Assembly: GCA_030595925.1 (NCBI GenBank) | Contig: JAUVLC010000007.1 | Coordinates: 1-40,117 of the forward strand | Source of the DNA: Clostridia bacterium | Lineage (GTDB): Bacteria; CBDUZB01; JAGLHV01 | DNA: 40,117 bases | Direction of reading: 5' to 3' | In this document: positions 6,120 through 40,117 of the stretch, piece after piece | How the letters are laid out: the number at the start of each line of letters is the position of its first letter | Numbering within the stretch: the stretch's first letter is position 1 | Notes under the pieces: generated by a model | The model's input: the letters and a program-made list of their open reading frames with translations, nothing else | Told to the model about the DNA's origin: nothing | The model's database searches: none | Position numbers and translations under genes: made by a program

Positions 6120-6328
6120 AGAGTTCTGCAAAATAGTTTTTTATCTTCCTTGTCATTCCTGCTCCCTGCAAAAGCAGGGAATAAACTTGTCCCCGTGAAA
6201 ACGGGGAGCAGAAATCTATTGATATTTTAAGCACCTTATAGATTCCGCATCATCCGCCTGAGGCGGAGCAGAATGACCCGCCTTATAAACTGGCGAACAG
6301 GCAAAATATTGTATTTTGTAGAAGTCTA
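6120..6328. repeat. R3 element (MITE-like)
   Basis: Terminal inverted sequences AGAGTTCTGCAAAATAG and TATTTTGTAGAAGTCT. The body contains GTCATTCCTGCTCCCTGCAA, CCCCGTGAAAACGGGGAGCAG, and the inverted GGCGGAGCAGAATGAC. It lies inside the probable glnA leader, about 30 bases upstream of the start codon. A close relative is at 9498-9704. Confidence 0.85.
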
Positions 6329-6364
6329 ATTTTTTTTGGTTTTATTAACCAATAGTTTCTGAGC

Positions 6365-6411
6365 AGTCAAACGGCTATTTTATTTTGATTCCATAAAATA
6401 GCCGTTTGACT
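6365..6411. other. 18-bp perfect stem-loop in glnA leader
   Basis: Left arm AGTCAAACGGCTATTTTA (6365-6382) and right arm TAAAATAGCCGTTTGACT (6394-6411) pair perfectly around an 11-base loop. No U-run follows on either strand, so it is not a standard terminator. On the minus strand it starts within a few bases of the expected start of transcription from the sigma54 promoter at 6428-6443, placing it at the very 5' end of the glnA leader. Confidence 0.85.
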
Positions 6412-6427
6412 CTCTACTTTAACTTTA

Positions 6428-6443
6428 TGCAATTTGGTTGCCA
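6428..6443 (-). promoter_or_regulatory. Sigma54 (-24/-12) promoter for glnA
   Basis: The minus strand reads TGGCAACCAAATTGCA: the invariant GG and GC dinucleotides are exactly 10 bases apart, with TGGCA and TTGCA both perfect to consensus. The next gene downstream is glnA (start 6089). Consistent with control by the NtrC protein encoded at 25402-26841; no enhancer site was identified by eye. Confidence 0.85.
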
Positions 6444-6633
6444 ATATGCCTGCATTTTAGACAATTAGTAAAAGGAAATACCTATTAATCTCCATTTTCC
6501 ATCTATTTTACATTGATTTCTTATCTTTCACTGCAAAATTAATTTCTTTTCCCTTTTTAAAAGCTTCTGCTTAAAAATTGTGCATCAACTGCTCATTTTT
6601 AAGCTTTTTGTATAAAAAATAGTTTTTTCCATC

Positions 6634-6975
6634 CTAACCAATTGCTTCTTTGCCTTTCTCTCCGGTTCTTATGCGAATACAATTTCCCATATCAAGAACA
6701 AAAATTTTACCATCACCAATTTTACCGCTTCTTGCTCCTTTAATAATGGCTTCAACAGTAGCATCAACAAAATCATCATTAACTGCTATCTCTAACCTTA
6801 GTTTTTTAAGTAGATTTACCTCGTGAATTACCCCTCTATAGGTTTCACTGAATCCTTTCTGTTGACCACATCCTAAAGCATTGGTAACGGTTAACTTAAA
6901 AATCTGAGCATCATATAACGCTTTTTTAACATCCGGTAATTTATGCGGTTGAATCATCGCTATTATCAGTTTCAT
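6634..6975 (-). CDS. glnK: PII signal protein, GlnK type
   Basis: A 113-residue PII protein with a normal-length T-loop ([20 protein letters not shown]), B-loop [14 protein letters not shown] and C-loop [11 protein letters not shown] trimers bind ATP/ADP and 2-oxoglutarate; a copy next to amtB normally plugs the ammonium channel when nitrogen is plentiful. It lies downstream of amtB, separated by a 13-bp hairpin and nested repeats, so it may be read through from that operon. The start follows GAGGAGG with good spacing. The Tyr in SETYRG corresponds to the usual modification site, but no uridylyltransferase is seen here. Confidence 0.95.
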
Positions 6976-7006
6976 TTTTAAACTCCTCCTCTTTTTAATT
7001 TAGTTT

Positions 7007-7240
7007 AGACTTCTGCAAAATAGCCTTTTATCTTTTCTGTCATTCCTGCGAACAGACTGTGTCCTAATTCTGATTTTTTGAAGCAATTGTAGTTGCCTCA
7101 TTTATGAGGCATTATTATTATCCGTTCCGCCCAATCATCCAAGTTAACGATAGACAAGTAAATTGGGCAACTACATTGATTATGACACAGTCTGGAAAGT
7201 AAGAATCCATTGATATTTTAAGCACATTTCACAGAACTCT
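7007..7240. repeat. R3 element interrupted by an R2 element
   Basis: R3 ends AGACTTCTGCAAAATAG (7007) and ACAGAACTCT (7240) enclose an R2 copy at 7053-7194 with ends CAGACTGTGTCCTAAT and ATTATGACACAGTCTGG. R3 body text is split at CATTCCTGCGAA and resumes with AAGAATCCATTGATATTTTA. Together with the hairpin at 7259-7294 it fills the 340-base amtB-glnK gap. Confidence 0.85.
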
Positions 7241-7258
7241 TTAATTTGTTAATTCACC

Positions 7259-7294
7259 GGTTAAGGTTGCCCAATAAATCAGGCAACCTTAACC
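7259..7294. other. 13-bp perfect hairpin after amtB
   Basis: GGTTAAGGTTGCC (7259-7271) pairs with GGCAACCTTAACC (7282-7294) around a 10-base loop, about 20 bases past the amtB stop codon. There is no clear U-run on the minus strand. It may be a processing or attenuation element limiting read-through from amtB into glnK. Confidence 0.7.
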
Positions 7295-7314
7295 ATCGGG
7301 ATTATTCTTTGTTT

Positions 7315-8691
7315 TTATTCCGTACTAAAAATTTGAAAACCGGAATAAGCTTCCATTCCATGTTCGCTAATATCCAATCCTTTTAATTGTTCTTCATCCG
7401 ACGCTCTCAGTCCTACTGTTTTCTTAATTATATAAAAAAGGAGCAAAGCTGTTCCAAAAACCCAGATAAATACTGATAATACACCGATTACCTGGATAAA
7501 GAACTGGGTTAATCCTCCTCCGAAGAAAAGACCGTTAACTGATCCCATCCCACTGGATTCACCATAAGAAGCCTGAGCAAATAATCCCACAGCAAGGGTT
7601 CCGAATGCGCCACAAACCCCGTGCACTGATATTGCCCCTGCAGGATCATCAACATGTAAAACTTTATCAAGAAATTCAACACTAAGCACTACCAATATTC
7701 CGGCTATTGCTCCGATAATTATTGCACTTAAAGGGGATACATTAGCACAACCGGCAGTAATGGCTACTAATCCGGCTAACGCTCCATTTAATGCCATACT
7801 GGTATCGGGTTTTCCAAATCTCTTCCATGCAGTAAACATCGCTGTAATGGCTGCGGCTGCGGCCGCCAAATTAGTAGTTACAGCAATCGTGGCTATACTT
7901 AAATTTGTTCCTGCGGTAGTACTTCCCGCATTAAAACCAAACCAGCCAAACCAGAGGATAAACACACCCAGTGCAGCTAAAGGAATATTATGTCCTGGTA
8001 TAGCATTAGAACCACCATCCTTATTATATTTTCCCAATCTGGGACCAAGGAGTAATGCTCCGGCTAAACCAGCCCAACCACCTACTGAATGAACTACAGT
8101 CGAACCGGCAAAATCCACCATTCCTTTACTACTCAACCAACCGCCTCCCCAAATCCAATGACCAACTACAGGATAAATTACCGCACAGATAAAAACCGAG
8201 TAGACTAAATAAGCAGGAAATTTTGTTCTTTCTGCCACTGCTCCGGAAACAATAGTTGCTGCTGTGGCGGCAAAAACTACCTGAAAAATCCAAAAGGCAT
8301 ACTGCCATAATCCATCCCCTGTTCCCGGATTACCGGCACTTAAGAAAAACCCATCAGTTCCAAAAAAGCCCATTGCACTGGCCCCAAACATTATACCAAA
8401 CCCAACTAACCAATAAGCCAGAGAACCTATACAGAAATCCATCAAATTCTTCATTAAAATATTAGCCGCATTTTTCGCTCTGGTAAAACCCGTTTCTACC
8501 ATAGCAAAACCCGGCTGCATAAAGAAAACCAAAAAAGCCGCTACTAATGTCCAAACCGTATCAATCGCTACAGCGTTAGTGGCTGCTGTCGCCTCTTCTT
8601 CCGCAAAAGCAATTAACGGTAAGATCAACCCTAAATACAAACTACTTTGTATTGTTACTCTAAACACTTTTTTTAACATTTTTTTAAACAT
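7315..8691 (-). CDS. amtB: Ammonium channel AmtB
   Basis: A 458-residue inner-membrane ammonium transporter with a cleavable-looking signal peptide (KKVFRVTIQSSLYLGLILPL ... AFAEEE). Eleven or so hydrophobic spans follow. The twin pore histidines are visible in GSTVVHSVGGWAGLAGAL and AISVHGVCGAFGTLAVGLFA, and QPGFAMVETGFTRAKNAANI is the usual first-helix signature. It imports ammonium for glutamine synthetase. It lies 26 bases downstream of the TorF-like gene and upstream of glnK; AmtB and GlnK-type PII proteins are functional partners. The ATG at 8691 has AGGAGAGG upstream; an in-frame ATG four codons later is a weaker alternative. Confidence 0.97.
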   Translation of the reverse strand: MFKKMLKKVFRVTIQSSLYLGLILPLIAFAEEEATAATNAVAIDTVWTLVAAFLVFFMQPGFAMVETGFTRAKNAANILMKNLMDFCIGSLAYWLVGFGIMFGASAMGFFGTDGFFLSAGNPGTGDGLWQYAFWIFQVVFAATAATIVSGAVAERTKFPAYLVYSVFICAVIYPVVGHWIWGGGWLSSKGMVDFAGSTVVHSVGGWAGLAGALLLGPRLGKYNKDGGSNAIPGHNIPLAALGVFILWFGWFGFNAGSTTAGTNLSIATIAVTTNLAAAAAAITAMFTAWKRFGKPDTSMALNGALAGLVAITAGCANVSPLSAIIIGAIAGILVVLSVEFLDKVLHVDDPAGAISVHGVCGAFGTLAVGLFAQASYGESSGMGSVNGLFFGGGLTQFFIQVIGVLSVFIWVFGTALLLFYIIKKTVGLRASDEEQLKGLDISEHGMEAYSGFQIFSTE

Positions 8692-25094: not shown

Positions 25095-25157
25095 CTCACT
25101 TTTCTCCCATTCCTGCGAACATAACTCTAATTTTTCTGTGGTATCTTATTTTTCTGT

Positions 25158-25311
25158 GGTAGCCGCAGGCTTTAGCCTGCGTTCTCATCGGAGATTTTCC
25201 TCTGTCTTACTTTTCTGTCATTCCCCAACAATAATATTTCTCTGTGGTAGCCGCAGGCTTTAGCCTGCGTAATTTCCCCGTCGATAACGCAGGCTAAAGT
25301 CTGCGACTACC
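25158..25311. repeat. R1 repeats downstream of ntrC
   Basis: A half copy GGTAGCCGCAGGCTTTAGCC at 25158-25182 and a full palindrome at 25246-25311 (ending AAAGTCTGCGACTACC), separated by a CATTCCCCAACA spacer. This is the main part of the 428-base ntrC-nifH gap and belongs to the segment duplicated at 10112-10419. Confidence 0.85.
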
Positions 25312-25401
25312 AATAAGGAAATTGTGACAGGGCATAAAACTTCAACAATAATCTCACAAACTGTTTTTTTTATTCTTTATGCTTTATTTTTAACACTTTG
25401 A

Positions 25402-26841: not shown

Positions 26842-26987
26842 TTTTTCATTCTCCTTATTTTAAATAGTTATTAAGTTTTACAAAATAGTTTTTGGGGCTT
26901 TGCCATCTGGACATCTAAGTACATTGTAACAAATATAGAGAAAAATTTTTCCTATGCGTTTGCTGAATCCATTAAATAATCGAGTAT

Positions 26988-27063
26988 ATCTAACAATTGA
27001 GTTCAGCTGTTTTACGGAACAACGAAGCCGCATAGTAAAATCCGCTGAAGCGAGTTGTTATGC
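26988..27063 (-). other. Integron attC-like recombination site
   Basis: Read in the gene direction (minus strand) it starts GCATAACAACTCGCTTCAGC just past the RloC stop codon and ends GCTGAACTCAATTGTTAGAT. The outer boxes TAACAA/TTGTTA and inner boxes TTCAGC/GCTGAA pair, with an unpaired 5-base spacer between them, as in attC sites; the last seven bases GTTAGAT fit the core GTTRRRY. An inner TTTTAC/GTAAAA stem forms the variable terminal region. Orientation relative to the gene is that of a cassette. No integrase is in the window. Confidence 0.6.
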
Positions 27064-27067
27064 TTTT

Positions 27068-29422
27068 TTATACTTTTGCTTCACCTATACTTTTCAATAG
27101 TGAGTTGTATTGATCGGAATCTTTTTCTTTAATTTTAGTTAAAACATAATTTGCAAGTTTTTTAATTTCCGGTATTTCAATCGGCTTCATGCTTCTGTCA
27201 AAATGCTCTTCAAGATGTGATAGTTCATTATAGATTCTATTTGTTAAAATGGCAGAAGTTTTATCATCACCAAAAAACAATGTAACTTTTTCATATGTTG
27301 TTTTATTGTCTGGATATTTATAAAACAAATATGCCTCTAAAAATTTTCTAAGATTGTTTCCAAAATTATAATAATACCCATATTCTTGATTCTTCACTTT
27401 AGATGAACATTTATATATCTGATGAAACAGATAATTAAATTCGGTAGTATAATTTTTTAAGTGGTCAGGCATTAATTGAATATAGCTTTTTTTTTCACTT
27501 CCCTCTATAATAAAATATTCGGTATTATTTCTAGGTTTGCTCAGACATTTCAAATATTTTAAAAAATCCAAATTATGGGTTGATACAAACAATTGTTTGT
27601 ACTTATATACATTCGAATTGTCAGTGTTTTTATTGGGCTTAGCTATTATACTTTCAATCAAACTAAAAACAAAGAATATATGGTTGATATCTAGGCTGGA
27701 AACAGGGTCATCTATCCAAATAATAAGCTCTTTATCTTTTGTTTCGACATCATCGAGTTTTGCCATAAAATAGCATAAGGATACAAGATTACATTCGCCT
27801 TCGCTCAAATTATAAGCAACTTCATTTTCTCTTTTGATTACAAACTTTAAACCTGAATCGTCTTCCTCTGGAACTAACCTTAATCCTTTGTGTCCAAAAA
27901 AATGATTAAGGTATTCATTTATTTTTTTTGCCCCTTTTCGCTCATCCTTTAATTGAGTTAAAAGATTTTCTATTTCAGATTCGATGTATTTTATTTGATT
28001 TTCAATTTCTTCTTTTTCTTTAATAAGTTTTTTTTCTTCACCATCCAACTTTCTTATATTTAGCAGTTCGTTATTATAGCCAATGGCTTTTATGAATTTT
28101 GCAACTTCATTTAATCGGAGATCTTTTCTGGCTGAATCCTGGTCATCTTTTAGGGTTTTTGTCTTATTATTGTTTTTATCTATGACCTTATTGAAATCTT
28201 CATGCAAATTTTCAATTGTTTTAGAATTGTCGTCAATATTACGCAATACCCTTGTTTTAAATATATCGTTTTCTCTGGCTTCTAATTCATTTATTAATTC
28301 ATCAAGATTTGAATCGTATTGTTTTATTGTCGCATCCCAATCTGTTTTATTTCTATCAAATTGGTCGCTTATCGTAGAATAGAATTGATTTTTATTAAGC
28401 TTTACCAATTCTTTTATACTGTTTTTTTCTTGCTGAATATTAGAGAGATGATTTTCAATTTGTTTCCGCAGTTCTTCGGATTCCTTGCTGAAATGAGTAT
28501 CCAACTTTCCCCATAAATCATCTGGTAATTCCGAGCCGCAAAAAGCACAGGTTTTTCTTTTGTCTCTGTGGTGTGGCATTCCCTGCCTTACCCATTCTTG
28601 TAAAACAGCATCATTTAATAATTCCTGAATGGACTTTTTGGGTTTTATTTCCTTTAATAAGATTTCTTTACTTCTTTCGAAAAAAGAATTGAATTTTGGA
28701 GAATATACAGGTAATAAAGGAGTATCTTCTTTGGCTTTTTCATTTAGAAGCTTTTTCTTGAAATCAATTTCTTTATCCGTTAAAAGCTGTTCCGGTTTCT
28801 CCTCAATATCTTGCTTTATATCGATGATATTATAATTAACATCAGAATATATCGAATTTTGCTTTATTTCATCATTAGCTTTACGCCGTAATTTCTCATT
28901 AAGATCATTTTCTCGGTTGTCTTTTTCTTCTTTCTTCTTTTCGCACCTTTCTTTTTTGATTTTTAAATCATAGCGAAGCCCTTTTTTCTTTTCTTCGTTT
29001 CCAAGGATATCATTTTTCTCTTTGATTTCTTTTTTCATTTCAACATTTTTATCACCTATTATGGCAAATGGCTTTATGCTGCCGTCGTCTTCATCCATTA
29101 ACCATTCTAAATTATCTTTTACGAAATCTTTATTATAAACTCGTATGTGGTATGGATTATTGCCCAGATTATCTTGATTCAACGTCTTATTTCCCGTGTG
29201 TGAAAGTTCAAATTTTGAATCAGGATATTTTTTATGCAAAAGTCCTTTTTCAAAACTTCTGAGAATGCGCGATAATGTAGTTTTGCCGGAATAATTACGG
29301 CCATATACGATATTCACTTTCTTGAACTCAACTATATTATTCCCGTTATCTCGAACTGATTTGTCCCAGTCAAAATCGGTAAAAACAGCAAAATCTTTGA
29401 TGGATTTTATCTTCTTAATCAA
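27068..29422 (-). CDS. RloC-like anticodon nuclease (AAA_13 ATPase with zinc-hook motif)
   Basis: A 784-residue ABC/SMC-like ATPase: Walker A GRNYSGKTT (41-49), long charged coiled coil with CAFC at 292-295 (zinc hook as in RloC/Rad50), second coiled coil, signature NLSEGECNL (near 540), Walker B LIIWIDDPVSSLD (near 570) and STHN (614). The C-terminal region has Arg692-x3-Glu696 (NNLRKFLEAYL) and His736 (NELSHLEEH), matching the Arg-Glu-His tRNase triad described for PrrC/RloC. RloC cuts tRNA anticodon loops when host DNA is under attack. Start is TTG at 29422 with GGAGG ten bases upstream. Its upstream partner gene is truncated. Could be another AAA_13 protein if the triad is not catalytic. 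Confidence 0.7.
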   Translation of the reverse strand: MIKKIKSIKDFAVFTDFDWDKSVRDNGNNIVEFKKVNIVYGRNYSGKTTLSRILRSFEKGLLHKKYPDSKFELSHTGNKTLNQDNLGNNPYHIRVYNKDFVKDNLEWLMDEDDGSIKPFAIIGDKNVEMKKEIKEKNDILGNEEKKKGLRYDLKIKKERCEKKKEEKDNRENDLNEKLRRKANDEIKQNSIYSDVNYNIIDIKQDIEEKPEQLLTDKEIDFKKKLLNEKAKEDTPLLPVYSPKFNSFFERSKEILLKEIKPKKSIQELLNDAVLQEWVRQGMPHHRDKRKTCAFCGSELPDDLWGKLDTHFSKESEELRKQIENHLSNIQQEKNSIKELVKLNKNQFYSTISDQFDRNKTDWDATIKQYDSNLDELINELEARENDIFKTRVLRNIDDNSKTIENLHEDFNKVIDKNNNKTKTLKDDQDSARKDLRLNEVAKFIKAIGYNNELLNIRKLDGEEKKLIKEKEEIENQIKYIESEIENLLTQLKDERKGAKKINEYLNHFFGHKGLRLVPEEDDSGLKFVIKRENEVAYNLSEGECNLVSLCYFMAKLDDVETKDKELIIWIDDPVSSLDINHIFFVFSLIESIIAKPNKNTDNSNVYKYKQLFVSTHNLDFLKYLKCLSKPRNNTEYFIIEGSEKKSYIQLMPDHLKNYTTEFNYLFHQIYKCSSKVKNQEYGYYYNFGNNLRKFLEAYLFYKYPDNKTTYEKVTLFFGDDKTSAILTNRIYNELSHLEEHFDRSMKPIEIPEIKKLANYVLTKIKEKDSDQYNSLLKSIGEAKV

Positions 29423-29520
29423 AACTGAATTGCCTCCATATTTTCAAACTCAATAATATTTACTCTTCTTTTTCCAATCATAAGCTCGTGAAGTCTTGAG
29501 TCTTGAGGAACACTGTCTAA
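29419..29520 (-). pseudogene. Truncated 3' end of the gene formerly coupled to rloC
   Basis: 33 codons read LDSVPQDSRLHELMIGKRRV then NIIEFENMEAIQF and stop; the stop TGA overlaps the TTG start of the RloC-like gene (TTGA), a translational-coupling arrangement. Upstream the frame runs directly into the tail of a transposase remnant (29530-29690). I do not recognise the family. Confidence 0.55.
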
Positions 29521-29529
29521 AGTTTTAAT

Positions 29530-29690
29530 TTATTGAAGTATCTGTTTTTCAAGCTCTCTTTCCCCACACAAAATCCTGTCTTTTTCTTTTGTTATACTTA
29601 CCTGTCCGCCAATCCTTAAGGAAGATTGCACCGAATTCCTTCAAATATTTACTCGCCAAATACACTTCTCGTTCTTTTATCCATAATTTA
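29530..29690 (-). mobile_element. Decayed Y1-transposase tail (type B)
   Basis: The minus strand encodes SITKEKDRILCGERELEKQI LQ-stop in the same form as at 39934-40117 (SITKEKGRILCREKGLEKQI). The upstream part is frameshifted and carries a CCTGTCCGCCAATCCTTAAG block belonging to the R3 repeats, so one repeat has entered another. Confidence 0.6.
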
Positions 29691-29729
29691 AAACTTTAAG
29701 CAATATTCCCCAAGCCCCTTGGAAAGAAA

Positions 29730-30677
29730 TCAATTATTAGTTTTTCGGGGAAAAATCAATCCATGAGCATTATTAAATGACACAGCATATCTTTCTAATC
29801 CTCTAACACCACCTTCATCTATATGAAAAAGAAACGCAAGCCAACCATTGATATGGCTAACCAATTTTGGCTTATCCTCTTCCTTAACTTTATTTCTTAA
29901 AAGTTGGTATATTTTAGCCCGAAGAACTCTTTTTTCCTTTTTACCAATACCAACCCCTTCATCACTAATTATTAATCCTGTAACTTTTTTTCTTGTACTT
30001 TTCCCCATAAAGCGAGTTTTTCTATCATTCAAAGTAAATCCTTCCTCATAAATTATTCTTTCAACAAACTTTTTAATCCTTAATAGCCTTAAAAAACTTA
30101 ATGAGGAAAATGTAAAATCATCAGCATAACGTGTGTATGTCACATTATGCTTCCCTACATAACCAGCAAGCCGTCTATCAAGCCGAATACAGATTATGTT
30201 TGAAATGATTGGAGAGGTAACCCCTCCTTGAGGTAAAACCCCTCCACATGTGCACAATGATGTTAATATATGAGCAACATGATCGTTATAACCAATGGTT
30301 TTAAAAACTGTATAAACCATAGGATATTTTATTGACGGAAAGAAATCGTCTAGATCCATGCAAAGAATATATTGATTATCTTTATGCGCTAAAGCATTTT
30401 CACGAATTCCTCTTTTTTCTCGAAAACCCATTGCCACGTCAGACAATTGAACTTTCCGCAAAATATTAGACATAATCCATGATTGAACCGCTTTCATTTC
30501 CTTATTTGGACAATGGATTGTTCTTTGCCCTCCATTTTTCTTATCAATTGAAAAAGAAACATAATAATAATTATTAAATTTAGAAAGTCTATATAGCAAT
30601 TCCTTTGACAAATGCAAATGATCTGATAAATCCTGCAAATTATTTATAATAGGCAATCCAAATAATTGTAATCTCAT
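29730..30677 (-). CDS. Retron-type reverse transcriptase
   Basis: About 315 residues. RT motifs in order: IDKKNGGQRTIHCPNKEMK, the retron hallmark NAxxH (RENALAHKDNQYILCMDLDD), LPQGGVTSPIISN, catalytic YADD (TRYADDFTFSS) and the second retron hallmark VTG (KKVTGLIISD). It should copy a structured ncRNA into msDNA that holds a toxic effector in check. The ATG at 30677 is used; a GTG at 30701 with a weak GAG upstream would add eight residues. It follows a NDT-like effector gene by about 107-130 bases, an interval holding a long hairpin. Small compared with group II intron RTs and without maturase or endonuclease domains. Confidence 0.9.
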   Translation of the reverse strand: MRLQLFGLPIINNLQDLSDHLHLSKELLYRLSKFNNYYYVSFSIDKKNGGQRTIHCPNKEMKAVQSWIMSNILRKVQLSDVAMGFREKRGIRENALAHKDNQYILCMDLDDFFPSIKYPMVYTVFKTIGYNDHVAHILTSLCTCGGVLPQGGVTSPIISNIICIRLDRRLAGYVGKHNVTYTRYADDFTFSSLSFLRLLRIKKFVERIIYEEGFTLNDRKTRFMGKSTRKKVTGLIISDEGVGIGKKEKRVLRAKIYQLLRNKVKEEDKPKLVSHINGWLAFLFHIDEGGVRGLERYAVSFNNAHGLIFPRKTNN

Positions 30678-30728
30678 AATTTTTATCAAGAAGAGAGACA
30701 CTAAAACTTACTCTAAAGCACACTAATT

Positions 30729-30769
30729 AACTGTGGGATCAATTTGCAAAGCAAATTAATCGCACAGTT
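30729..30769 (-). ncRNA. Candidate retron msd hairpin
   Basis: AACTGTG (30729-30735) and CACAGTT (30763-30769) pair, and apart from one C-C mismatch the pairing continues through AATTTGC/GCAAATT to a 3-base loop, about 18 base pairs in all. It sits in the effector-RT spacer. The flanking a1/a2 inverted repeats expected for msr-msd were not found, so only the hairpin is certain. Confidence 0.35.
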
Positions 30770-30808
30770 AAATATAAATATCGGATTGGTTTCCGTCAGG
30801 GATAGCGA

Positions 30809-31738
30809 TTAAGCACCATCCACAAGCTGAAGCATCCGCGCATCAGCCGAACTAAGAATTTGTGTCCCTCTTCTTTTTGTTTTCCTCATTGTATGATTTA
30901 AAACAGCAACTCTTAATTTATCTATAACCTTGGTTACTCTTCGTCTATATTTTAAAATACCCTGTATTCTTCTTAGCCCTTCCTTTGTTAACTCATATCT
31001 TGCTGAACGAAGCAAAAGCTCTTTATTCCGCAACAAGATATTTAATGAGGCATTAGTGATTGCCCACACCGTCTCTTCTGTCTCGTTTCCAATAGAACTA
31101 ATCATTTTAATTATATCAGCCTTTTTCATTGGCTGCATAACATAAACGGTAGCAAGCAGAAAGAATTGGGCATAAATTAAATTCTTAATTGAATTATTGG
31201 GTTTTACTTGTTTAGCTATTTTTCTAACACATCCACTCACTTTCTCTCTCAGTTTCTCTAAATTGTCTTCGCTTGTATTTTTAAAATTATAATAAATTAC
31301 AGCGCTATCAGTTTTTTTTCTTAACATCATCACAGGACCTAACATTATGAAACTTTTTTCCTTTTTATATTTTTGATCAACAATAACAACTAATCTATTT
31401 TTTAACACCTCATGATTTGCAAAAGCTCCTAACTCGGCTATTGAACCAGCGCTTTCAAGAACTATAACAATAGCATGAACACTCAATGCTAATAAATTCT
31501 CAAGATGTAATAAGTCTATTTCATTCCTTCCTTGAAATAATTCATCAAATAACTCTTCTGGATAAAAAATTCCCAAGTTAGGGTTGTACCAAAAATCAAG
31601 TAATTTCTTTCGCAAAGAATCTCTAAGGCTATTTTGAATGTCCTGACCACTTCCTATTAAGAAAACATTTAATTGCCTTTCTATTAAGGCAGGATAAATA
31701 TATTTATTTATTATTTGTGCAATATCGCGATAAATCAT
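30809..31738 (-). CDS. Retron effector: nucleoside deoxyribosyltransferase-like domain plus winged helix
   Basis: A 309-residue two-domain protein. Residues 1-165 resemble nucleoside 2-deoxyribosyltransferases: NVFLIGSGQDIQNSLRDSLR, DLLHLENLLALSVHAIVIVL, and ESAGSIAELGAFANHE, with Glu95 and Glu102 as likely active-site acids. Residues 180-309 look like a winged-helix DNA-binding domain (MKKADIIKMISS, ARYELTKEGLRRIQGIL). This architecture is the effector of type II-A retrons such as Ec86/Eco1, where the enzyme is released or activated when msDNA is disturbed. It overlaps the DUF2130 gene by an ATGA junction, and the RT gene follows, giving strong support for the assignment. Confidence 0.85.
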   Translation of the reverse strand: MIYRDIAQIINKYIYPALIERQLNVFLIGSGQDIQNSLRDSLRKKLLDFWYNPNLGIFYPEELFDELFQGRNEIDLLHLENLLALSVHAIVIVLESAGSIAELGAFANHEVLKNRLVVIVDQKYKKEKSFIMLGPVMMLRKKTDSAVIYYNFKNTSEDNLEKLREKVSGCVRKIAKQVKPNNSIKNLIYAQFFLLATVYVMQPMKKADIIKMISSIGNETEETVWAITNASLNILLRNKELLLRSARYELTKEGLRRIQGILKYRRRVTKVIDKLRVAVLNHTMRKTKRRGTQILSSADARMLQLVDGA

Positions 31739-33117
31739 ACTTGCTTCTTTTCTTCCCTTTCTAATGGCAGTTTTAAAATTTTAACAGCCGGCAAAGTAGC
31801 ACCCACTATTCCCTCAAGGTCTCCATGCATACCAGCAATATTTAAAACTACTCTTTCAATTTGCTTTTCTCTTTTAGCCCAGATGTTTGCCATTGCCCTT
31901 TTTTCTGAATCTAAGTCTCTTTTCATAGCCACAAAGCTTTCCATAATGGCTTGCACACGGTTTCTGAAGTCCGAACCGGTCAAGTAATTGTAAACAATTT
32001 CTTGTTTCTCTTCTTTTCCAGTCTGAATTTCTTTTGTTTTGGTAACCTGGGTCAATATCATTCTCAACGCTAATGCTAAACTAAGTGCAGATGGAATATC
32101 TGTAACCCAAAGTCCTTCTATTTGCCGAAAATGATGGAATCCCTTGGGTAATGCTTCAGAAACAATAACCGCCAAATCTGCCTTCGCTTCCCGCTGATCG
32201 TCTTTTAACTTTTGAATCCAGCCATCACTCCAAGCTTTTGTTCTTTTTGTTTCCCATAGGATTTTACCACATAAACAGCCTGATTGAGTTTTAACAGTCT
32301 GCAAAACATCTGCCCCGCGAACGCCTTTGGAAATAGGTCCAATCTCATCAAAGGGAAAATCATCTTTCAATAGCTGTTCCACCTCCACTTCAAGAACCTC
32401 TCCCTGTGTCTGTTGTGATCTTTGCTCTGCTTTACGCTTAAGTTCCTCAATCTGCCTGCACATATCTGCCAATTGCTTATCCTTTTCAGCATCTTTGAGT
32501 CTATGGCTTTCTTCTAATTTCCGTGCAGCTTTCTCTGCAATTTTTTGTCTCTCAGCATCAAGCTTGCGAGCAAGTTCTAATTCCATACCTTTTTCTTTGT
32601 CTTCTAATTCCCGCTGTCTTTTTCTCAATTCAAGCTCTTGCTGCTCTGCTTTTTCTAATCTTTCTGATTTTGTCTTTATTTGTCCCTTAAGATCAGCAAG
32701 TTCAATTTTTTGAGTTTCCTGTGCTTCTTCCCGTGCTTTTTCTTCAATTACCCTTTTTTCTATTAACCACTTTTCTTTTAACCTATATGCCTGCTCTTCT
32801 AATTGCTTCTCAAGACTCTCTTCTTTTTCCTTCAACTGCCGTTCTCTCTTGCGAAATTCAAGCTCTTGTTTTTGTATTTTTTTAATCTTTTTAGATTTTT
32901 CAAATAATTGCTCTTTTAAATCTGTTAATTCTAAATTAACTGATTCCTTTGCTTTTTTCTTAGCTTTCGCTTCAATCTTCTTTCTCTCTTCTTTGATCCG
33001 TCCTTCAATTTCTTTTTCATATTTAGATTTTATTGCTATCTCAATGTCTTGAGAAATCGCCTCTGACAATTTGATTATTGTCCCACAATTTGGACATGTT
33101 ATATTTTCTTGTGCCAT
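31735..33117 (-). CDS. DUF2130-family coiled-coil nuclease-like protein
   Basis: A 460-residue protein. A small CPNC knuckle (Cys8, Cys11) is followed by a charged coiled coil (about 30-235) built of two related 77-residue-spaced blocks. The DUF2130 domain follows: GEVLEVEVEQLL, DDFPFDEIGPISKGVRGADV, GKILWETKRTKAWSDGW and KLKDDQREAKADLAVIVSEA. Asp270 and Glu289-x-Lys291 are arranged as in PD-(D/E)xK nucleases, so DNA cleavage is possible (inference). It starts two bases after the OLD gene and overlaps the NDT effector gene by ATGA, so it is translated as part of the same unit. DUF2130 is not a recognised retron component as far as I know. Confidence 0.85.
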   Translation of the reverse strand: MAQENITCPNCGTIIKLSEAISQDIEIAIKSKYEKEIEGRIKEERKKIEAKAKKKAKESVNLELTDLKEQLFEKSKKIKKIQKQELEFRKRERQLKEKEESLEKQLEEQAYRLKEKWLIEKRVIEEKAREEAQETQKIELADLKGQIKTKSERLEKAEQQELELRKRQRELEDKEKGMELELARKLDAERQKIAEKAARKLEESHRLKDAEKDKQLADMCRQIEELKRKAEQRSQQTQGEVLEVEVEQLLKDDFPFDEIGPISKGVRGADVLQTVKTQSGCLCGKILWETKRTKAWSDGWIQKLKDDQREAKADLAVIVSEALPKGFHHFRQIEGLWVTDIPSALSLALALRMILTQVTKTKEIQTGKEEKQEIVYNYLTGSDFRNRVQAIMESFVAMKRDLDSEKRAMANIWAKREKQIERVVLNIAGMHGDLEGIVGATLPAVKILKLPLEREEKKQV

Positions 33118-33119
33118 AA

Positions 33120-34985
33120 TTAATCCTTTTTACCTGCAATATTTTCTATAATATTTTCTAATTCATTATTAGATGCTGTCTTCCATTCTTCCTCTGTCAT
33201 CTCTTCAAAAATATCCACATTTCCTTTTACTTTTAAATTTATATTAAGTTCGCTCTTTTTTTCTTTCAAATAACGAATGACATCTTTGTTGTAAGGAAAG
33301 ACATTAAAATCAATAACCTTTTCGCCAAGGCTATATTTTCTCTCAATTGCTCGAGGATGATAATAACTTTCAATGTACTTTTTATTAAGGATAAAACAAC
33401 AGGCTTTATCTTTTTTCTCAAAATGCTTTTTTAGTTGCTCGTTCTCCTTAATTAAAGCATCAAAAGATGCCTTTTGTTTCTCATCGCACTCATCCTCATC
33501 GTAAATATTACCATCTAATAATAAAAATAAATTTCTTTTGGCTTGTGAAAAATAATCTATATCAACAAAATTAGCTATTGTTTGACCACCCCCAAATAAA
33601 AACAATATCTTTTCTTTACATGGAAACGCATCAAAATTTATATTTTTTAGTTTATTAGCGGCTATTTTAAAGAATTCTATATCGTCTTTTCCTTCTAAAA
33701 AAACTATAGTCTCAAAATGATCTCTAAGATTATAAGAAGGCTTTATCCCCAACTCTTCTATTATCTCCGTTATTAAGGAAGATTCATCCTTTTGCTTATA
33801 AATAGACTGGCTTTCTTTCTTGCATAATATAACATTACACGTTTTTGTTGCACCAGCGAATATCGGAGAATGTGTTGTTATCAATATTTGACTATCACCC
33901 GATATTTCTACTAAAGAGTCTAATAAGTCATGCTGAGCTGAAGGGTGTAAAAATGTTTCAGGTTCTTCAATAGCATAAATAACATCTTCTTTATTCTTTT
34001 TTGCAGCTAAATACCTAAACCTACCCACCATAAATAACCTGCGGTATCCCGCACCTTTATTTTCCATTGGTATAGCAGCCGTATCCTTACTAAACTTTAA
34101 TTTGACCGTTACATCTTTTATTGCATCAACCCACTTAAAATGGGGCTCTATCTCTATTTTCTCTAAATCTGATACGTGCATTTGCATATATTTTTTAATT
34201 TCACCAGCCTCTTCCTGAATTTTCTTTGTGGTATCTTCCTCTATGCTCTTCAATTTTGAATCTTTTTGTTCTCTTTCTTGGTTAAAAAACTCCACTGTTT
34301 CCGTTTTCAAGCTAGTATTAAATTTTGTATCTGTACTTATTGCGTGCTCAGCCGGAAAAAACTCTATTTCAGGTAATAAATCATCTACTTTAGTATCCTC
34401 TTTCCAAACAATTTCTTTCTCAAAATTATTATCTTCTAAATGTTTTTTTATATATTTTGCTTTTTCTAATTTTGCATTTCGTCCTGGCTGATCCGGTGGT
34501 ATTTCAATTTTTAATTTATTTAATATCTTATTCAAATCTTTATCGTTTTTATCACTTAAATTTCTATATGCTTTATCTTTAAAATCAACTGTATATATTT
34601 CACATTTAGAAGGCTTTTTGTCAGCTTTATCCCATATCTTCCGCACTATCACTTTGTTATTCTCTTGAATTATTGAATCAACCTCTTCTTCTATTCCAAT
34701 TTCTTTTTTTCTATTTCGTTTTATATAATCAGAAAGCTTATTTCTTAGCGCATGGTCTTTAAAATAACAAATAATCTCGATAGCTTCTTCTGAATGCCTA
34801 TTGATGTTAAAATCCTTACTTTCTATTTGATAATTTTTACAATCTAAAAAAGCAGCTATTGCATGCAAAACAATAGATTTTCCTGAATCATTTTTGCCAA
34901 CAAAAGTAGTTAAGTTTGAAATACTAATCTCTTGTTTTTCTCTTATTCCTCTAAAATTTTTAATTATGATTTTATCTAATTTCAT
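33120..34985 (-). CDS. OLD-family ATP-dependent nuclease (AAA plus TOPRIM)
   Basis: A 621-residue overcoming-lysogenization-defect protein. ABC-type ATPase: Walker A GKNDSGKS (30-37), signature-like NKGAGYRRLF (about 309-318), Walker B YAIEEPETFLHP (337-348), ITTHSP (369-374). TOPRIM nuclease: Glu431 (FLEGKDDIEFF) and Asp491 (LLLDGN). OLD proteins act in phage defence, alone, with UvrD-like helicases (Gabija) or as effectors of some retrons (Eco8). No helicase gene is adjacent. First of four closely packed genes with DUF2130, NDT effector and RT. Very AT-rich (8 G/C in bases 34501-34560). Start after GGAGGGGGG. Confidence 0.9.
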   Translation of the reverse strand: MKLDKIIIKNFRGIREKQEISISNLTTFVGKNDSGKSIVLHAIAAFLDCKNYQIESKDFNINRHSEEAIEIICYFKDHALRNKLSDYIKRNRKKEIGIEEEVDSIIQENNKVIVRKIWDKADKKPSKCEIYTVDFKDKAYRNLSDKNDKDLNKILNKLKIEIPPDQPGRNAKLEKAKYIKKHLEDNNFEKEIVWKEDTKVDDLLPEIEFFPAEHAISTDTKFNTSLKTETVEFFNQEREQKDSKLKSIEEDTTKKIQEEAGEIKKYMQMHVSDLEKIEIEPHFKWVDAIKDVTVKLKFSKDTAAIPMENKGAGYRRLFMVGRFRYLAAKKNKEDVIYAIEEPETFLHPSAQHDLLDSLVEISGDSQILITTHSPIFAGATKTCNVILCKKESQSIYKQKDESSLITEIIEELGIKPSYNLRDHFETIVFLEGKDDIEFFKIAANKLKNINFDAFPCKEKILFLFGGGQTIANFVDIDYFSQAKRNLFLLLDGNIYDEDECDEKQKASFDALIKENEQLKKHFEKKDKACCFILNKKYIESYYHPRAIERKYSLGEKVIDFNVFPYNKDVIRYLKEKKSELNINLKVKGNVDIFEEMTEEEWKTASNNELENIIENIAGKKD

Positions 34986-35028
34986 TTAATTGCCCCCCCT
35001 CCAAAAAAAACTTCTTTGATTTACCTTA

Positions 35029-35682
35029 TTAGCTCCCAACGCCCGTCACCGGATGGGTCGAAAAATCACCTGGCATTTCGTCAAGTAGTTCCTTTGTTCG
35101 AAAAGTGAGAGTCACCATTCCTGTTGTCCAGCGTTGCGTCCAATATTCGCCTTTAAGTTTGTGAACTGGAGCCCCGATGATATTAAACAGTATCGTGCCG
35201 TCATGTGGCGTACTTCTTTCGCGCAAAGAGGATTTGGGTTTGCTCGTGTACGAGTAGCAGAGCCGCCGAACCTGGGCATCCTTGTCGATACAAAATCCTT
35301 CAAGGTAACTATGGCTTTCCATTTCCCCTGTTCGCATGACGCAACTCATTCGCCCAAAGCTCTGCTTGATCGTCAAAATCGTCGGAATAAGACCAGGCGT
35401 CTTCCCCTCATCATCCTTCCAGTTCGTTTGAATGTGGCCTTGCCAAGTGCCGTTTAGATCGGGAAACGGGATAAGCCATCCTTTAAGACAATTCCATCGC
35501 CAAAGCCAGGTTGTAAAAACGAGGTAGGCTATACCATCCGCCGTGACAACAATCGGAATGAGTCGGATCACGTCAAGGAAATTCCGAAGGTCAAATCCCT
35601 GAACCAGTGCGGCCAAGAAAAGTACAATCACGGAGAAACCGGCAAGCAAGGAAAGAAAGGGCTTCATGTTCAAATTCTTCAT
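35029..35682 (-). CDS. CBASS effector, Cap15-like (two TM helices plus beta-barrel)
   Basis: A 217-residue membrane protein. Two hydrophobic helices (about 8-28, FLSLLAGFSVIVLFLAALVQ; about 35-61, DVIRLIPIVVTADGIAYLVF) precede a soluble beta-rich domain opening with FPDLNGTWQGHIQTNW. This layout and the ATGA overlap with a CD-NTase gene match Cap15, whose barrel binds a cyclic nucleotide and triggers inner-membrane disruption and cell death. The nucleotide made here is not readable from sequence. Its base composition is clearly higher in GC than the adjacent OLD gene. Confidence 0.85.
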   Translation of the reverse strand: MKNLNMKPFLSLLAGFSVIVLFLAALVQGFDLRNFLDVIRLIPIVVTADGIAYLVFTTWLWRWNCLKGWLIPFPDLNGTWQGHIQTNWKDDEGKTPGLIPTILTIKQSFGRMSCVMRTGEMESHSYLEGFCIDKDAQVRRLCYSYTSKPKSSLRERSTPHDGTILFNIIGAPVHKLKGEYWTQRWTTGMVTLTFRTKELLDEMPGDFSTHPVTGVGS

Positions 35683-36578
35683 AACTGCCCCCCAAGTCCG
35701 TCATAATTCCATACCTCATACGCGAAAGCATTTGCCTGCTCACGAGTCCCTTTTTGTGTCTCGAGAAAGAGCCATTTCAATCCACTGACTTCAACCCATT
35801 TCGCACATGCTTCTTGTGTATTTGTATTCTCGTAGAGATACACAAGCACGGCTTTCACGTCGGCTAAGTATGTGTGGTTTCCGAAGCGATCATCGGGGAT
35901 GTTGTAAGCAAGACACTCAAGGAAGAAGCCGGGAACATCGGCGACTCCGATTCCCTGCCCAATCATTTCATTAGAAAGTGCTTTTAGCACGCGCACAATG
36001 GATTTGAAGCGGGTATCAGTGTCATTGTTTTTACCAACACCGTTTTCGTAATGTTGTTCCGGCCAATTGATGACACGGTGGTTCTCCTTATCTGTCCGCA
36101 ATCCCACGCCTTCAAGATAGGTACCGTCCACTTGGTAACGGCGATGCTCAAAGAAGGCGGCTACGTCTGCTTCGACATGGTGAGTCGTTTCGTGAACATC
36201 GAAAGCCTTGTTTCCCCGTTTTACGGCGGAGCGTCCAAAGTATTTGACAAGAGCTTCTTCGACTTCGTTTTTGTATTGGTTGTAATAATAGGTGGCGTCC
36301 AAGAATCTAAGCTTTTCCTGCGTCAAGCCTTCAGGAAACGGGTCGTGAAAAAATGTGTCCGTGCAAAGTACTCCGATGTCAACATCGCTGTCTTTGCGAA
36401 CATTCGTATTATTCCGATAGGAGCCTTGGACAAAGATGGAAACACCACGGACTCGGAGCTTGTCGCTTGCCTTGATTGCGTTTCGGATCGCGGACACAGC
36501 ATTGTCGCAGCGATCTTTCTCCGTCTTGCCGGGTGGCTTCGCCCATTCCCTGAATTGTGATTCCCAATCTCGTAACAT
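35679..36578 (-). CDS. CBASS cyclic nucleotide synthase (CD-NTase)
   Basis: A 299-residue SMODS nucleotidyltransferase. Gly52-Ser53 (FVQGSYRNNTNV) and Asp65-x-Asp67 (RKDSDVDIGV) form the nucleotide and metal site, with the third acid Asp138 (HHVEADVAAFFEHR). HETTHH precedes it. After phage sensing it should make a cyclic di- or trinucleotide that activates the Cap15-like effector encoded next (ATGA overlap). No Cap2/Cap3, HORMA or TRIP13 genes are adjacent, so this is the short two-gene (type I) form. It has 27 G/C in bases 35701-35760, much more than its neighbours, which points to a separate transfer. Confidence 0.92.
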   Translation of the reverse strand: MLRDWESQFREWAKPPGKTEKDRCDNAVSAIRNAIKASDKLRVRGVSIFVQGSYRNNTNVRKDSDVDIGVLCTDTFFHDPFPEGLTQEKLRFLDATYYYNQYKNEVEEALVKYFGRSAVKRGNKAFDVHETTHHVEADVAAFFEHRRYQVDGTYLEGVGLRTDKENHRVINWPEQHYENGVGKNNDTDTRFKSIVRVLKALSNEMIGQGIGVADVPGFFLECLAYNIPDDRFGNHTYLADVKAVLVYLYENTNTQEACAKWVEVSGLKWLFLETQKGTREQANAFAYEVWNYDGLGGQL

Positions 36579-36667
36579 AGTTACCCTGTCATCTTTTCGT
36601 GTTTATTACAGCGAACAATCAATATACAAATTTTTTTTATACGGCTTGTACTGCTTGCGAGACGTTG

Positions 36668-36830
36668 TTAATTAGTTAAAATATCATTAAAAATACTTTT
36701 TGCCCCTGCATCCAATCCCTAATAATTTTCCTAACTTCTCACCGAATTCTTTCAAATATATACTCGCCAAATACACTTCTCGTTCCTTCTATTCCTACTG
36801 TAAAACTTTAAGCAACTTTCCCTATGTTTA
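36668..36830 (-). mobile_element. Fused Y1-transposase tail remnants (A end joined to B)
   Basis: The minus strand opens with the type B fragment (KCIWRVYI-type, frameshifted; ESGEKLGKLLGIG is recognisable) and jumps at GGATGCAGGGGCAAAAAGTA into the end of the type A fragment, stopping at the TTAATTAG motif. It marks recombination between two related tails. Confidence 0.6.
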
Positions 36831-36937
36831 TCCTTTATTAAAAACATACAACTCAAATTCTTTATTTTTTCCACATAACGACCAAGCTCACCTGATATAT
36901 GAGGCTTAGGGGACGTTGTGAGGCTTAGGGGACGTTG

Positions 36938-37226
36938 TTAAATAGTTAAAATGTCATTAAAAATACTCTTTGCCCCTACATCCTTCTCTATTATTTTCTT
37001 CCCTCGATTATATACTATTTTATACTGGCACTGCTCTTGTTTAATTCTAAGCCTATTTCAATACCCTGCTCCCTAAAATACCTTTACCCCATGTATGACA
37101 TCAAAGCTCCGGCTTTAACTGTTTTTTCACCCCTTCTATTTCCCTTTAATTCTACGACCTCAACTACTAATTTTTTGGCTATCAGATTGACTAAGTCTTT
37201 AAACAAAGATATGTCAATAATTATTT
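36938..37226 (-). mobile_element. Y1-transposase C-terminal domain pseudogene (type A, longest copy)
   Basis: The minus strand reads ISLFKDLVNLIAKKLVVEVV, ELKGNRRGEKTVKAGALMSY, MG-stop-RYFREQGIEIGLEL, NKSSASIK-stop-YIIEGRK-stop, then after a frameshift IIEKDVGAKSIFNDILTI. The layout (RGEKxxKAGALxSYxG, YxREQGIEIGxELNKSSxSI, RGKKIIEKD) is that of the C-terminal DNA-binding region of long REP-associated/IS200-like Y1 transposases. Two in-frame stops and one frameshift make it dead. The terminal motif GGGGACGTTGTTAAATAGTT follows the stop. Confidence 0.65.
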
Positions 37227-37261
37227 AACTATTTAACAACGTTCCCCTATCCCCTCCCATA

Positions 37262-37513
37262 TTAGTTAATATCCCCTAACCCACAAACTTTGTCATATAA
37301 ATTCTCTAATTCAACTATTCCCATATCCAGAATCGGCTCATACATAAAAGAATTCAAATGTATATTTTCTGGTGTCATTATGTTTACACTCTCTAAAGTC
37401 TTTATCACATTAATATGACTTTTGATTTTACCAAATTCATCTTTATATCTTTGAAATAGTTTTCCGGTCTGACTACTATCAATGGGATTTTTGTCACTAA
37501 CTTTAGGGACGAC
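37262..37513 (-). pseudogene. Orphan 3' gene fragment between transposase tails
   Basis: 84 codons without a stop or credible start: VVPKVSDKNPIDSSQTGKLF, QRYKDEFGKIKSHINVIKTL, ESVNIMTPENIHLNSFMYEP, ILDMGIVELENLYDKVCGLG, DIN-stop. It looks like the real C terminus of a helical protein. Both sides are transposase-tail sequence, so the 5' part has been lost. Family not recognised. Confidence 0.5.
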
Positions 37514-37534
37514 TTAGGGGACGTTGTTAAGTAG

Positions 37535-37690
37535 TTAAATAGTTAAAATGTCATTAAGAATACTTTTTGTCCCTGCATCCTTCTCTATTATTTTCTTCCC
37601 TCAATTATATGCTATACTTGTACTGTCACTGTTCTTGTTTAATTCTAAGCCTATTACAATGCCCTGCTCCCTAAAATACCTACCCCATGG
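37535..37690 (-). mobile_element. Decayed Y1-transposase tail (type A)
   Basis: The minus strand encodes YFREQGIVIGLELNKNSDST, SIAYN-stop, GKKIIEKDAGTKSILNDILT I-stop, a near copy of the 36938-37226 tail but lacking its upstream half. The stop is followed by AACTACTTAACAACGTCCCC. Confidence 0.6.
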
Positions 37691-37773
37691 AGGATTTTAG
37701 GATTTTAGGGGACGTTGCGTACTTTAGGAACTAATTATTATTTGGGAAAACTTGGGTGACGTTGCTTAAAGTT

Positions 37774-37945
37774 TTACAGTTGTTGAAGTATCTGCTTTTC
37801 AAGTCCTTTTTCCCTACACAAAATCCTTCCTTTTTCTTTTGTTATACTTATCGCCCCTGATCCAATACCTAATAATTTCCCTAACTTCTCGTATGGTCAT
37901 TTCACATATTTATTCGCCAAACACACTTTCCTTTTCTTCTATCAA
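37774..37945 (-). mobile_element. Decayed Y1-transposase tail (type B)
   Basis: The minus strand contains EKLGKVLGIGSGAISITKEK and the ending EKQILQQL-stop, with upstream frame damage. The stop is followed by TTTAAGCAACGTCACCC. Between the tails at 36668-37945 I see no other gene, so the 1.5-kb gap between the AIPR and CD-NTase genes is entirely remnants. Confidence 0.55.
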
Positions 37946-38068
37946 GACTTTACCTCCCCCCTTTTTCCCATAACACTACTGTTTAGGCAAAACAGGGATA
38001 CATAGTACATAACCGACAAATTAAACAAATACTAAAAAATAGCATCACTTTTTAATTCTAAATCACGA

Positions 38069-38105
38069 AACACCCTGTTGTGTCGCTTGCAACAGGTTAT
38101 TATGC
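38069..38105. other. Hairpin downstream of the AIPR gene
   Basis: ACCCTGTTG and CAACAGGTT pair around TGTCGCTTG, followed by ATTATGC. On the minus strand it lies about 50 bases past the AIPR stop and begins GCATAATAACC. It recalls the outer box of the attC-like site at 26988-27063, but the GTTRRRY core is absent. It may simply be a transcript-end hairpin. Confidence 0.4.
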
Positions 38106-38153
38106 TGTTTATTCCTGTTTTATTTAAAGTTACCAGATAGACTAAAGACAATG

Positions 38154-39851
38154 TTAAATTGTATAATTTTGATATAGCATTTTACTTAATTCATTATCAA
38201 AAGAAGACGATTTTAAAGTATTATTTATATCGATTTTCAAGGATTCATTATTGTTAAATAAGTTTACTATTTGCTCAAATGCTTTATTTATAAAGCTATC
38301 CAATAAGTGATTAGAATTCTTTAATTGATTAAGCTCTCTTTTTAGAGAATCAACATCGTTCCAATTATCATTTTTACGCCAAATAAATGATGCAACTCTT
38401 GCAATGTGGAATTGGGCGTTTTTTGCTATATATCTCTCCAAATCATTTTCGCTATTTATAAAATCTGAACTATTAATTTGCTTAGAGGTATAGTGCTTTA
38501 TTAAATATGTTATTATAAAAGCTTCAACATTTGAAGTTTTAAAAATACTTTCATAATAATCACTCCATATTTTATATTTTCTACTCCTTGAATCTGAAGG
38601 TCTTTTCAATGCTATAGTAAGATACGAAGTTGCAACAATTTCATTCGGAAAAATCTTTTCAGAATCAATTGATAAGTTGAAATATTGTCTTGGTTTTCTT
38701 TCATAATGATAATCATAGATTTTGAATGCTATTTCTAAATCTCTTTGAATTTTATCATTCGCTCTTAAATTTCTATTTGTGATCTTATTTTGATTATTAG
38801 TTGTTAAAACAACTTTATCAACCAAATTTAAATCTGATGTTTCAAATACTTTAAGAATTACATTTACATCATCTTGTAATATACCCTCTTTTTCAGCAAG
38901 AGCAAGTGATGTCGATGTTTGACAACCATTTACAATTTGCATATTTTCTATTTTAACATGTGGATTATCGGGGTCAGTTACTGGATCAACTTTATCACAA
39001 ACAATAGTAATTCCATTATTTAAGAACCAAAACAGATAACTTGAATCCTCATCAGAACTTGTTTCTTTAATGTCCTTATTTACAGAGCCTAAATTTCCAA
39101 GATATTTTCTAATGTTCAAATCAAAGACAAATCCTTTAGTGTCTTCATTTACAATTCTTGCAATTTCTTTAGCGGTCGTTGTACAAATAATCCCTTTTAA
39201 TCCATGCGAATGGTATTTAATTAATGATGGGGAATTTGTATCATATTTTATTGTAATATTCGCATTTATCTTTTTATTTTTTTTCTCTTGGGAATTTATT
39301 AAGTCAACTATCTCTATAGCTCCAATAGATTCAAAAGAAAACTTAGAAAATGTATCATTATCCAATTCTTCAATAATAGATTTTATTTCTTGATTACACT
39401 CATCTGAAATTTCAGAAGATAAACCATTGGTGATATAGGCTACTTTGACTACAATATTTGATGGACCAATTGCAGCAATTAATTCTTTGCACTCTTTTAT
39501 TTTATCTTTGAACTTCTTGTTCGAAAGTGTATTAATATCAGCTTTCTTTTTTTTAAAAATCCAATGTAACCCATTTTTTATTTGAATAATAGAATTCGAT
39601 GAAAAAGAATATTCTTTTTTAACTTGTGAAATAAAAATGGTGCCTTCACCTTGGCTTTCTTCTATAGAAATACAATCAATTTGTTTGTCTTGTCCACCAT
39701 CAACATCATCATTTAAATCAAAGGCATGAATGCTTTGATCTGAGAATAAACAGTGTCCAAATATTTGAAAAGCTTTACATTTATTATTCAAAGCTAAATG
39801 TGAATCAATTTTATCTATCTGGTCCTCTACAATTTGTTGTCTTATATCCAT
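38154..39851 (-). CDS. AIPR-family abortive infection protein
   Basis: A 565-residue protein of the AIPR (abortive infection phage resistance) family. The core is recognised from NIRKYLGNLGSVNKDIKETS, LFWFLNNGITIVCDK, IENMQIVNGCQTSTSLALAE and TTNNQNKITNRNLRANDKIQ. The N-terminal 100 residues carry QDKQIDCISIE with Asp59 and ISQVKKEY with Gln76-x-Lys78, a PD-(D/E)xK-like nuclease arrangement with Gln in place of the usual acid. Phage defence is the family role; the target is unknown. It stands alone, bounded on both sides by transposase tails. Start after GAGGAG. Confidence 0.85.
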   Translation of the reverse strand: MDIRQQIVEDQIDKIDSHLALNNKCKAFQIFGHCLFSDQSIHAFDLNDDVDGGQDKQIDCISIEESQGEGTIFISQVKKEYSFSSNSIIQIKNGLHWIFKKKKADINTLSNKKFKDKIKECKELIAAIGPSNIVVKVAYITNGLSSEISDECNQEIKSIIEELDNDTFSKFSFESIGAIEIVDLINSQEKKNKKINANITIKYDTNSPSLIKYHSHGLKGIICTTTAKEIARIVNEDTKGFVFDLNIRKYLGNLGSVNKDIKETSSDEDSSYLFWFLNNGITIVCDKVDPVTDPDNPHVKIENMQIVNGCQTSTSLALAEKEGILQDDVNVILKVFETSDLNLVDKVVLTTNNQNKITNRNLRANDKIQRDLEIAFKIYDYHYERKPRQYFNLSIDSEKIFPNEIVATSYLTIALKRPSDSRSRKYKIWSDYYESIFKTSNVEAFIITYLIKHYTSKQINSSDFINSENDLERYIAKNAQFHIARVASFIWRKNDNWNDVDSLKRELNQLKNSNHLLDSFINKAFEQIVNLFNNNESLKIDINNTLKSSSFDNELSKMLYQNYTI

Positions 39852-39933
39852 TCAAGCTCCTCATATCTTGCTTATTCAAAATTGATTAATATTTTTTAGG
39901 AACATATAGGGAACGTTGCTTAAAGTTTTAAAG

Positions 39934-40117
39934 TTATTGAAGTATCTGTTTTTCAAGCCCTTTTTCCCTACACAAAATCCTTCCTTTTTCTTTTGTTATA
40001 CTTATCGCTCCTAATCCAATCCCTAATAATTTCCCTAACTTCTCACCGGATTCTTTCAAATATTCACTCGGTAAAACACACTTCTCGTTCTTTTTAAAAT
40101 TTTAAACAATTATATGT
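39934..40117 (-). mobile_element. Y1-transposase tail (type B), best-preserved copy, runs to window end
   Basis: The minus strand reads without a stop KNEKCVLPSEYLKESGEKLG, KLLGIGLGAISITKEKGRIL, CREKGLEKQILQ-stop. EKLGKLLGIGxGAIS is helix-turn-helix-like and corresponds to the tail domain of Y1 transposases. The stop is followed by TTTAAGCAACGTTCCC. The 5' part lies outside the window or is missing. Confidence 0.6.

Follow-up and report, generated by a model that had tools for sequence, protein, structure and literature searches.

A lone attC site directly after an RloC-like gene next to a defence island in a Clostridia bacterium

The stretch of DNA analysed here (the window, 40,117 nucleotides from a Clostridia bacterium) carries on its minus strand a gene for an RloC-like protein, followed after 4 nt by an attC site. 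The features on which the argument depends are listed below in window coordinates.

26985 to 27063, minus strand: attC site, in the order R''-L''-loop-L'-R' (74.6 bits with model R1, whose training set includes the site; 52.2 bits with R2, built without it; 31.2 bits with the foreign-only model R3)
27057 to 27063, minus strand: R'' box GCATAAC, read from the sequence
27044 to 27049, minus strand: L'' arm TTCAGC, read from the sequence, its partner being 27002 to 27007
27041, minus strand: extrahelical (unpaired) A, T on the opposite strand, from alignment A1 and the pair table
27002 to 27007, minus strand: L' arm GCTGAA, read from the sequence
26988 to 26994, minus strand: R' box GTTAGAT, read from the sequence, with crossover expected after the G, as known for attC sites and as seen at the L020/L022 boundary described below
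27068 to 29422, minus strand: RloC-like gene (AAA_13, PDC-S06) of 784 codons, the presumed cassette gene, with zinc hook CAFC and HEPN motif RIYNELSH
29490 to 29720, minus strand: dispersed repeat lying 5' of the gene, in the place at which one would look for a preceding attC or attI (39 genome matches; no R2 attC match)

Downstream follows, after 143 nt, a gene for an NtrC-type regulator. On the other side, a defence island occupies positions 29730 to 39851 of the minus strand and contains a retron type II-A reverse transcriptase with its effector, a CBASS cyclase with a Cap15-type effector, AAA_15 and DUF2130 genes, and an AbiU/AIPR protein.

The paired boxes proposed in a preliminary description of this DNA are all present on the minus strand: the outer boxes TAACAA (27060 to 27055) and TTGTTA (26996 to 26991), and the inner boxes TTCAGC (27049 to 27044) and GCTGAA (27007 to 27002). 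The proposed GTTAGAT end, fitting GTTRRRY, likewise lies at 26994 to 26988 and has a matching R'' box in GCATAAC, with which four R pairs form. In attC sites the R'' consensus is RYYYAAC and the crossover point falls after the G of GTT in the R' box; the third base of GCATAAC is off that consensus. The L'' and L' arms form an imperfect stem with an extrahelical A; the L stem contains one G.A mismatch and is separated from a TTTT/AAAA stem by the unpaired A. Side and orientation are also as had been suggested for a cassette, the RloC-like ORF ending before the site on the same strand. The element is a genuine attC, as the following analyses confirm.

The protein encoded by the gene matches Pfam AAA_13 and the PADLOC model PDC-S06 (984 bits, and PrrC with 42.6 bits). 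It combines the ABC ATPase, zinc hook and C-terminal HEPN motif RX4-6H that define RloC, in the motifs GRNYSGKTT, CAFC, LSEGE and RIYNELSH, the HEPN motif having the RX6H form. A sequence search of the PDB gave nothing at E 0.01, and no relative of the gene appeared in a scan of viral contigs. RloC and PrrC are treated as HEPN nucleases in the available part of PMC3710099, and it is the ABC ATPase, the hook and the C-terminal HEPN RX4-6H motif that the window protein shares with these anticodon nucleases. That part of the paper does not place RloC in integrons and describes an 'integron cassette HEPN' (PDB 3jrt) as a separate family. The window protein is a predicted anticodon nuclease. The best reading of the gene from its motifs is an RloC-like RNase, which would be expected to cleave tRNA on infection.

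Candidate sites were collected with the loose pattern TAACAAN{40,70}GTTRGRY, which served for this purpose only and showed no excess in the genome (27 matches versus 32 for the reversed control). From the 27, six were chosen by visual inspection because their arms paired, and the window site was among them. Model R1 is a covariance model from six own-genome sites, the window site among them, and gave 15 genome-wide matches with E below 1e-4. Because the sites of alignment A1 were picked for their paired arms, covariation counts from A1 are partly circular, and R2 and R3 were built to escape this circularity. All three models were made in the present analysis and are not IntegronFinder's, and their E-values are rough. 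R2 is a leave-one-out model of 34 attCs (13 from the same genome, 4 from congener G001 and 17 from Marinobacter and Halomonas, all aligned with R1) from which the window site was excluded. Its score at the window site corresponds to E 1.6e-9 over 227,446 bases and 1.8e-8 over the whole genome, and places the site 11th among the 22 R2 matches listed at E up to 1 in the whole genome. R3 was trained on 38 foreign sites from Marinobacter, Halomonas and genome G385, some of them adjoining a Halomonas IntI of 398.9 bits, and matched the window site at E 2e-4 over 211,791 bases; these sites had been collected with R2, which biases R3 towards sites resembling those of the window genome. All 18 R3 matches listed at E up to 5 fell on sites that R1 or R2 had already called. 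Across the 34 sites, in an alignment that was itself fitted to the model, 96.6% of cells were paired and 115 double-sided changes were counted, compared with 33.6 in shuffles. The folding energy, by comparison, was no better than that of dinucleotide shuffles (z -0.84 for the coding strand with flanks, z -1.22 for the other strand), and Rfam gave no match within the window. The support for an attC thus comes from sequence and structure combined in a model, not from energy or motif counts.

The genome contains at least 16 attC sites besides that of the window. Five form an array on one strand of contig C50 (20671, 21108, 22730, 23075 and 28651, by R1), where the surrounding ORFs include an MjaI-type endonuclease fragment, an SNF2 helicase and a RhuM protein; two more lie on contig C159 (12973 and 13991, by R1), and the sites on other contigs are single. 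Own-genome sites have boxes and stem pairing in common and differ in inner sequence. At 17 of 21 of them an ORF of 50 aa or more on the same strand ends between -6 and +10 nt from the attC, a set that includes weak sites (R2 E up to 0.078) and a C49 site with a deleted inner hairpin, and from which a weak R2 match at C155:3048 (E 0.57) was excluded. The same arrangement occurred at 718 of 30,000 random positions (2.4%) and at none of the 21 sites when mirrored or placed on the opposite strand. Congener G001 also has attC matches; G002 has none at E 0.05. The preliminary description had named, as the outcome that would speak against an attC, the lack of both a covariance match and similar sites elsewhere in the genome; both are present, the former from R2 and R3 and the latter including the five-site array.

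Two restriction-modification gene pairs were also seen, at L122:4108-4181 (contig C157) and L123:8034-8068 (contig C49), with an attC 0 to 1 nt after the endonuclease ORF; it is the C49 attC that has lost its inner hairpin.

A search for an integron integrase, which had also been proposed, found no TIGR02249 match over the cut-off in the 193 contigs of the genome. The best match below the cut-off was a XerC-like ORF after a topA-like ORF, and another was a 174-aa integrase adjoining a ParA-like gene on contig C159. Two congeners likewise gave none (three genomes in all, of one genus in the phylum-level group), and among 18 genomes with homologues of the RloC-like protein the profile matched in one, Halomonas, with 398.9 bits, which served as a control. 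Because the assembly is split into 193 contigs, absence of an integrase from the genome is likely rather than certain. With no integrase detected in the genome or in either congener, the window locus is not a complete integron, with intI and attI beside an array, and is instead a single attC without integrase. Two or more close attCs without an integrase, known as a CALIN, occur on C50 and C159; the window contig has one full attC. CALINs and single attCs, as treated in the available part of the IntegronFinder 2.0 paper (PMC9024848), share with the window site the boxes, the stem with an unpaired base, the orientation, the place after an ORF, the lack of an integrase near it and clusters elsewhere in the genome. 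The window site differs in standing alone in its contig, and would therefore be omitted by the IntegronFinder 2.0 default, which needs two attCs for a CALIN.

In the window, R2 identified no attC or attI 5' of the RloC-like gene that could mark the left end of the presumed cassette. The congeners yielded no orthologous locus that could represent an empty site; what matched there, more weakly, were the regulator gene and the repeats. Half an attC, GGTGAGCTTGGTCGTTA, corresponding to the 3' half, is located at 36876 to 36892 on the minus strand, upstream of the CBASS genes, with a weak R2 score of 15.2 bits; the pattern for such halves gave 1 match versus 0.05 expected and was drawn up after seeing this match. 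The half site hints at array decay.

The dispersed repeat is about 213 bp long and has inverted ends. Its copies in the window (29490 to 29720, 36740 to 36822, 37767 to 37952 and 39910 to 40094, minus strand) lie upstream of the RloC-like gene, of the CBASS pair and of AbiU, oriented with the gene, and same-strand copies are also clustered on C157, C49 and C110. Its origin may lie in a transposase-derived element that has decayed.

Homologous genes elsewhere do move as cassettes. In Marinobacter nauticus (locus L020) and Halomonas halocynthiae (locus L022), a homologue about 46% identical to the window protein lies between two attCs. The DNA of the two loci is 94.4% identical over exactly positions 4961 to 7465 in both, a 2.5-kb cassette, and has no match outside this segment at 1e-3. 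The identity begins at the C-GTTAGG of the preceding site, which supplies the 5' boundary, and stops where the gene's own attC ends, thus running from crossover to crossover. Among the training sites of R2 are L020:4893 and two that occur in L022 as well; R2 scores at these loci are therefore not independent, whereas the identity boundary is. The RloC gene thus travels as a precisely bounded integron cassette in Marinobacter and Halomonas, both of them marine bacteria. Furthermore, genome G385 encodes a divergent AAA_13 protein, 24% identical to that of the window, that also lies between attCs: three consecutive cassettes at L129:5228-10455, each ending in an attC, contain a DUF3732 protein, a 211-aa ORF and the AAA_13 protein, which has a CEFC hook. 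By R2, attCs flank the homologue on both sides in 3 of 32 loci and not in 29, several of the loci being cut short (window excluded; 19 from the homologue set, five from the class sample besides Halomonas, and eight from plasmids). Among the eight plasmid and five class-sample homologues, Halomonas aside, the scan found attCs in G385 only. A tree of 27 proteins places Alloalcanivorax, where the model calls no attC, as the sister of the cassette pair, and the window protein falls outside the Marinobacter/Halomonas pair at a position that the tree does not settle. This placement suggests that the association of RloC with attC may have arisen more than once.

Taken together, these results lead us to interpret the window element, with a probability of about 0.88, as the attC belonging to an integron cassette with one gene, that of the predicted RloC-like anti-phage RNase. 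A different history, in which a true attC was left by another, lost cassette and the RloC-like gene came otherwise and abuts it by chance, would account for the missing attC or attI 5' of the gene, for the dispersed repeat in its place and for homologues that mostly lie outside integrons. We regard it as improbable, because 4 nt separate the stop codon from the same-strand attC, an arrangement of the kind seen at 17 of 21 sites versus 2.4% of random positions, and because a homologue has been shown to be a cassette elsewhere.

Two other explanations deny that the element is an attC at all, and both appear very unlikely. Other dispersed repeats abound in the genome, and the element could be an attC-resembling member of a palindromic family of MITE or REP type; against this, the sites share boxes and pairing and not inner sequence, show double-sided changes of stem pairs, stand at gene ends in one orientation, and match attCs from an integron that bears an integrase. 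Were the element a hairpin formed by chance, or an ordinary terminator of transcription behind the gene, this would agree with a folding energy no better than shuffles, but hardly with E-values of 1.8e-8 and 2e-4 from models that did not contain the site.

If the cassette reading is correct, the non-coding strand (the plus strand of the window) would fold into the R/L-box hairpin, as in established attC biology, an integron integrase acting in trans would cut after the G of GTTAGAT, and gene and attC would move together as a circle. The window copy may be able to recombine. Integrases from outside can use CALINs, as stated in the part of PMC9668308 available. This copy presumably arrived as a cassette, either at a secondary chromosomal site or within an array of which it is the last survivor. 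Both routes, hypothetical as they are, fit the locus. Insertion of cassettes into chromosomes at attG sites (Loot et al. 2024, as cited in the accessible part of PMC12901181) would leave a lone cassette in the chromosome, as seen here, but the left junction at the window locus is not identifiable and attG is hypothetical in this case.

Integron-borne defence genes are already published, and the window case is not new in kind. Defence cassettes in Vibrio chromosomal integrons were reported by Darracq et al. 2025 and Getz et al., as described in the available part of PMC12409362, and PMC13064858, as far as available, follows up this work. The window gene resembles these in being an anti-phage gene in an integron cassette, and differs in belonging to another family, another bacterial lineage and a genome without integrase. 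According to the same part of PMC12409362, systems of more than two genes are absent from integrons, with which a single gene of 2.4 kb is consistent. Among the papers listed by literature searches, no title or abstract opening reported an RloC cassette; we do not claim a first report. The suggestion in the preliminary description that an anticodon nuclease in a cassette would link integrons to defence-island assembly is supported, an RloC-like cassette existing independently in Marinobacter and Halomonas, with two qualifications: no integron integrase was detected in the window genome, and defence cassettes as such were known. The evidence does not extend to assembly of the rest of the island by integrons. 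A large RNase gene of the RloC type nevertheless joins the genes carried by integrons, one RloC cassette is common to two genera with exact boundaries, and a lone attC of the sort omitted by default integron surveys can flag a mobile defence gene. In a more speculative reading, less likely than not, integron cassettes might have repeatedly delivered defence genes to this genome, in a lineage without a detectable integrase (the RloC-like gene and the restriction-modification systems of C157 and C49, each ending at an attC or its remnant); part of the defence repertoire would then have been built by an integrase that worked in trans or later disappeared, with the attCs decaying afterwards.

Several other repeated sequences were observed. 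At the end of contig C155 (L006, about 3043 to 3238), an attC-like 5' half continues as tandem TTCCGG..CTTCTACCA sequence close to the contig terminus; this may be the end of a mobile element. Contigs C187, C185 and C97 (L007, L008 and L009) close with nearly the same sequence over about 140 bases, where a repeat or mobile element probably interrupted the assembly. Within the window, positions 25147 to 25312 contain palindromic GCAGGCTTTAGCCTGCG repeats, which are present at many places in the genome and its congeners.
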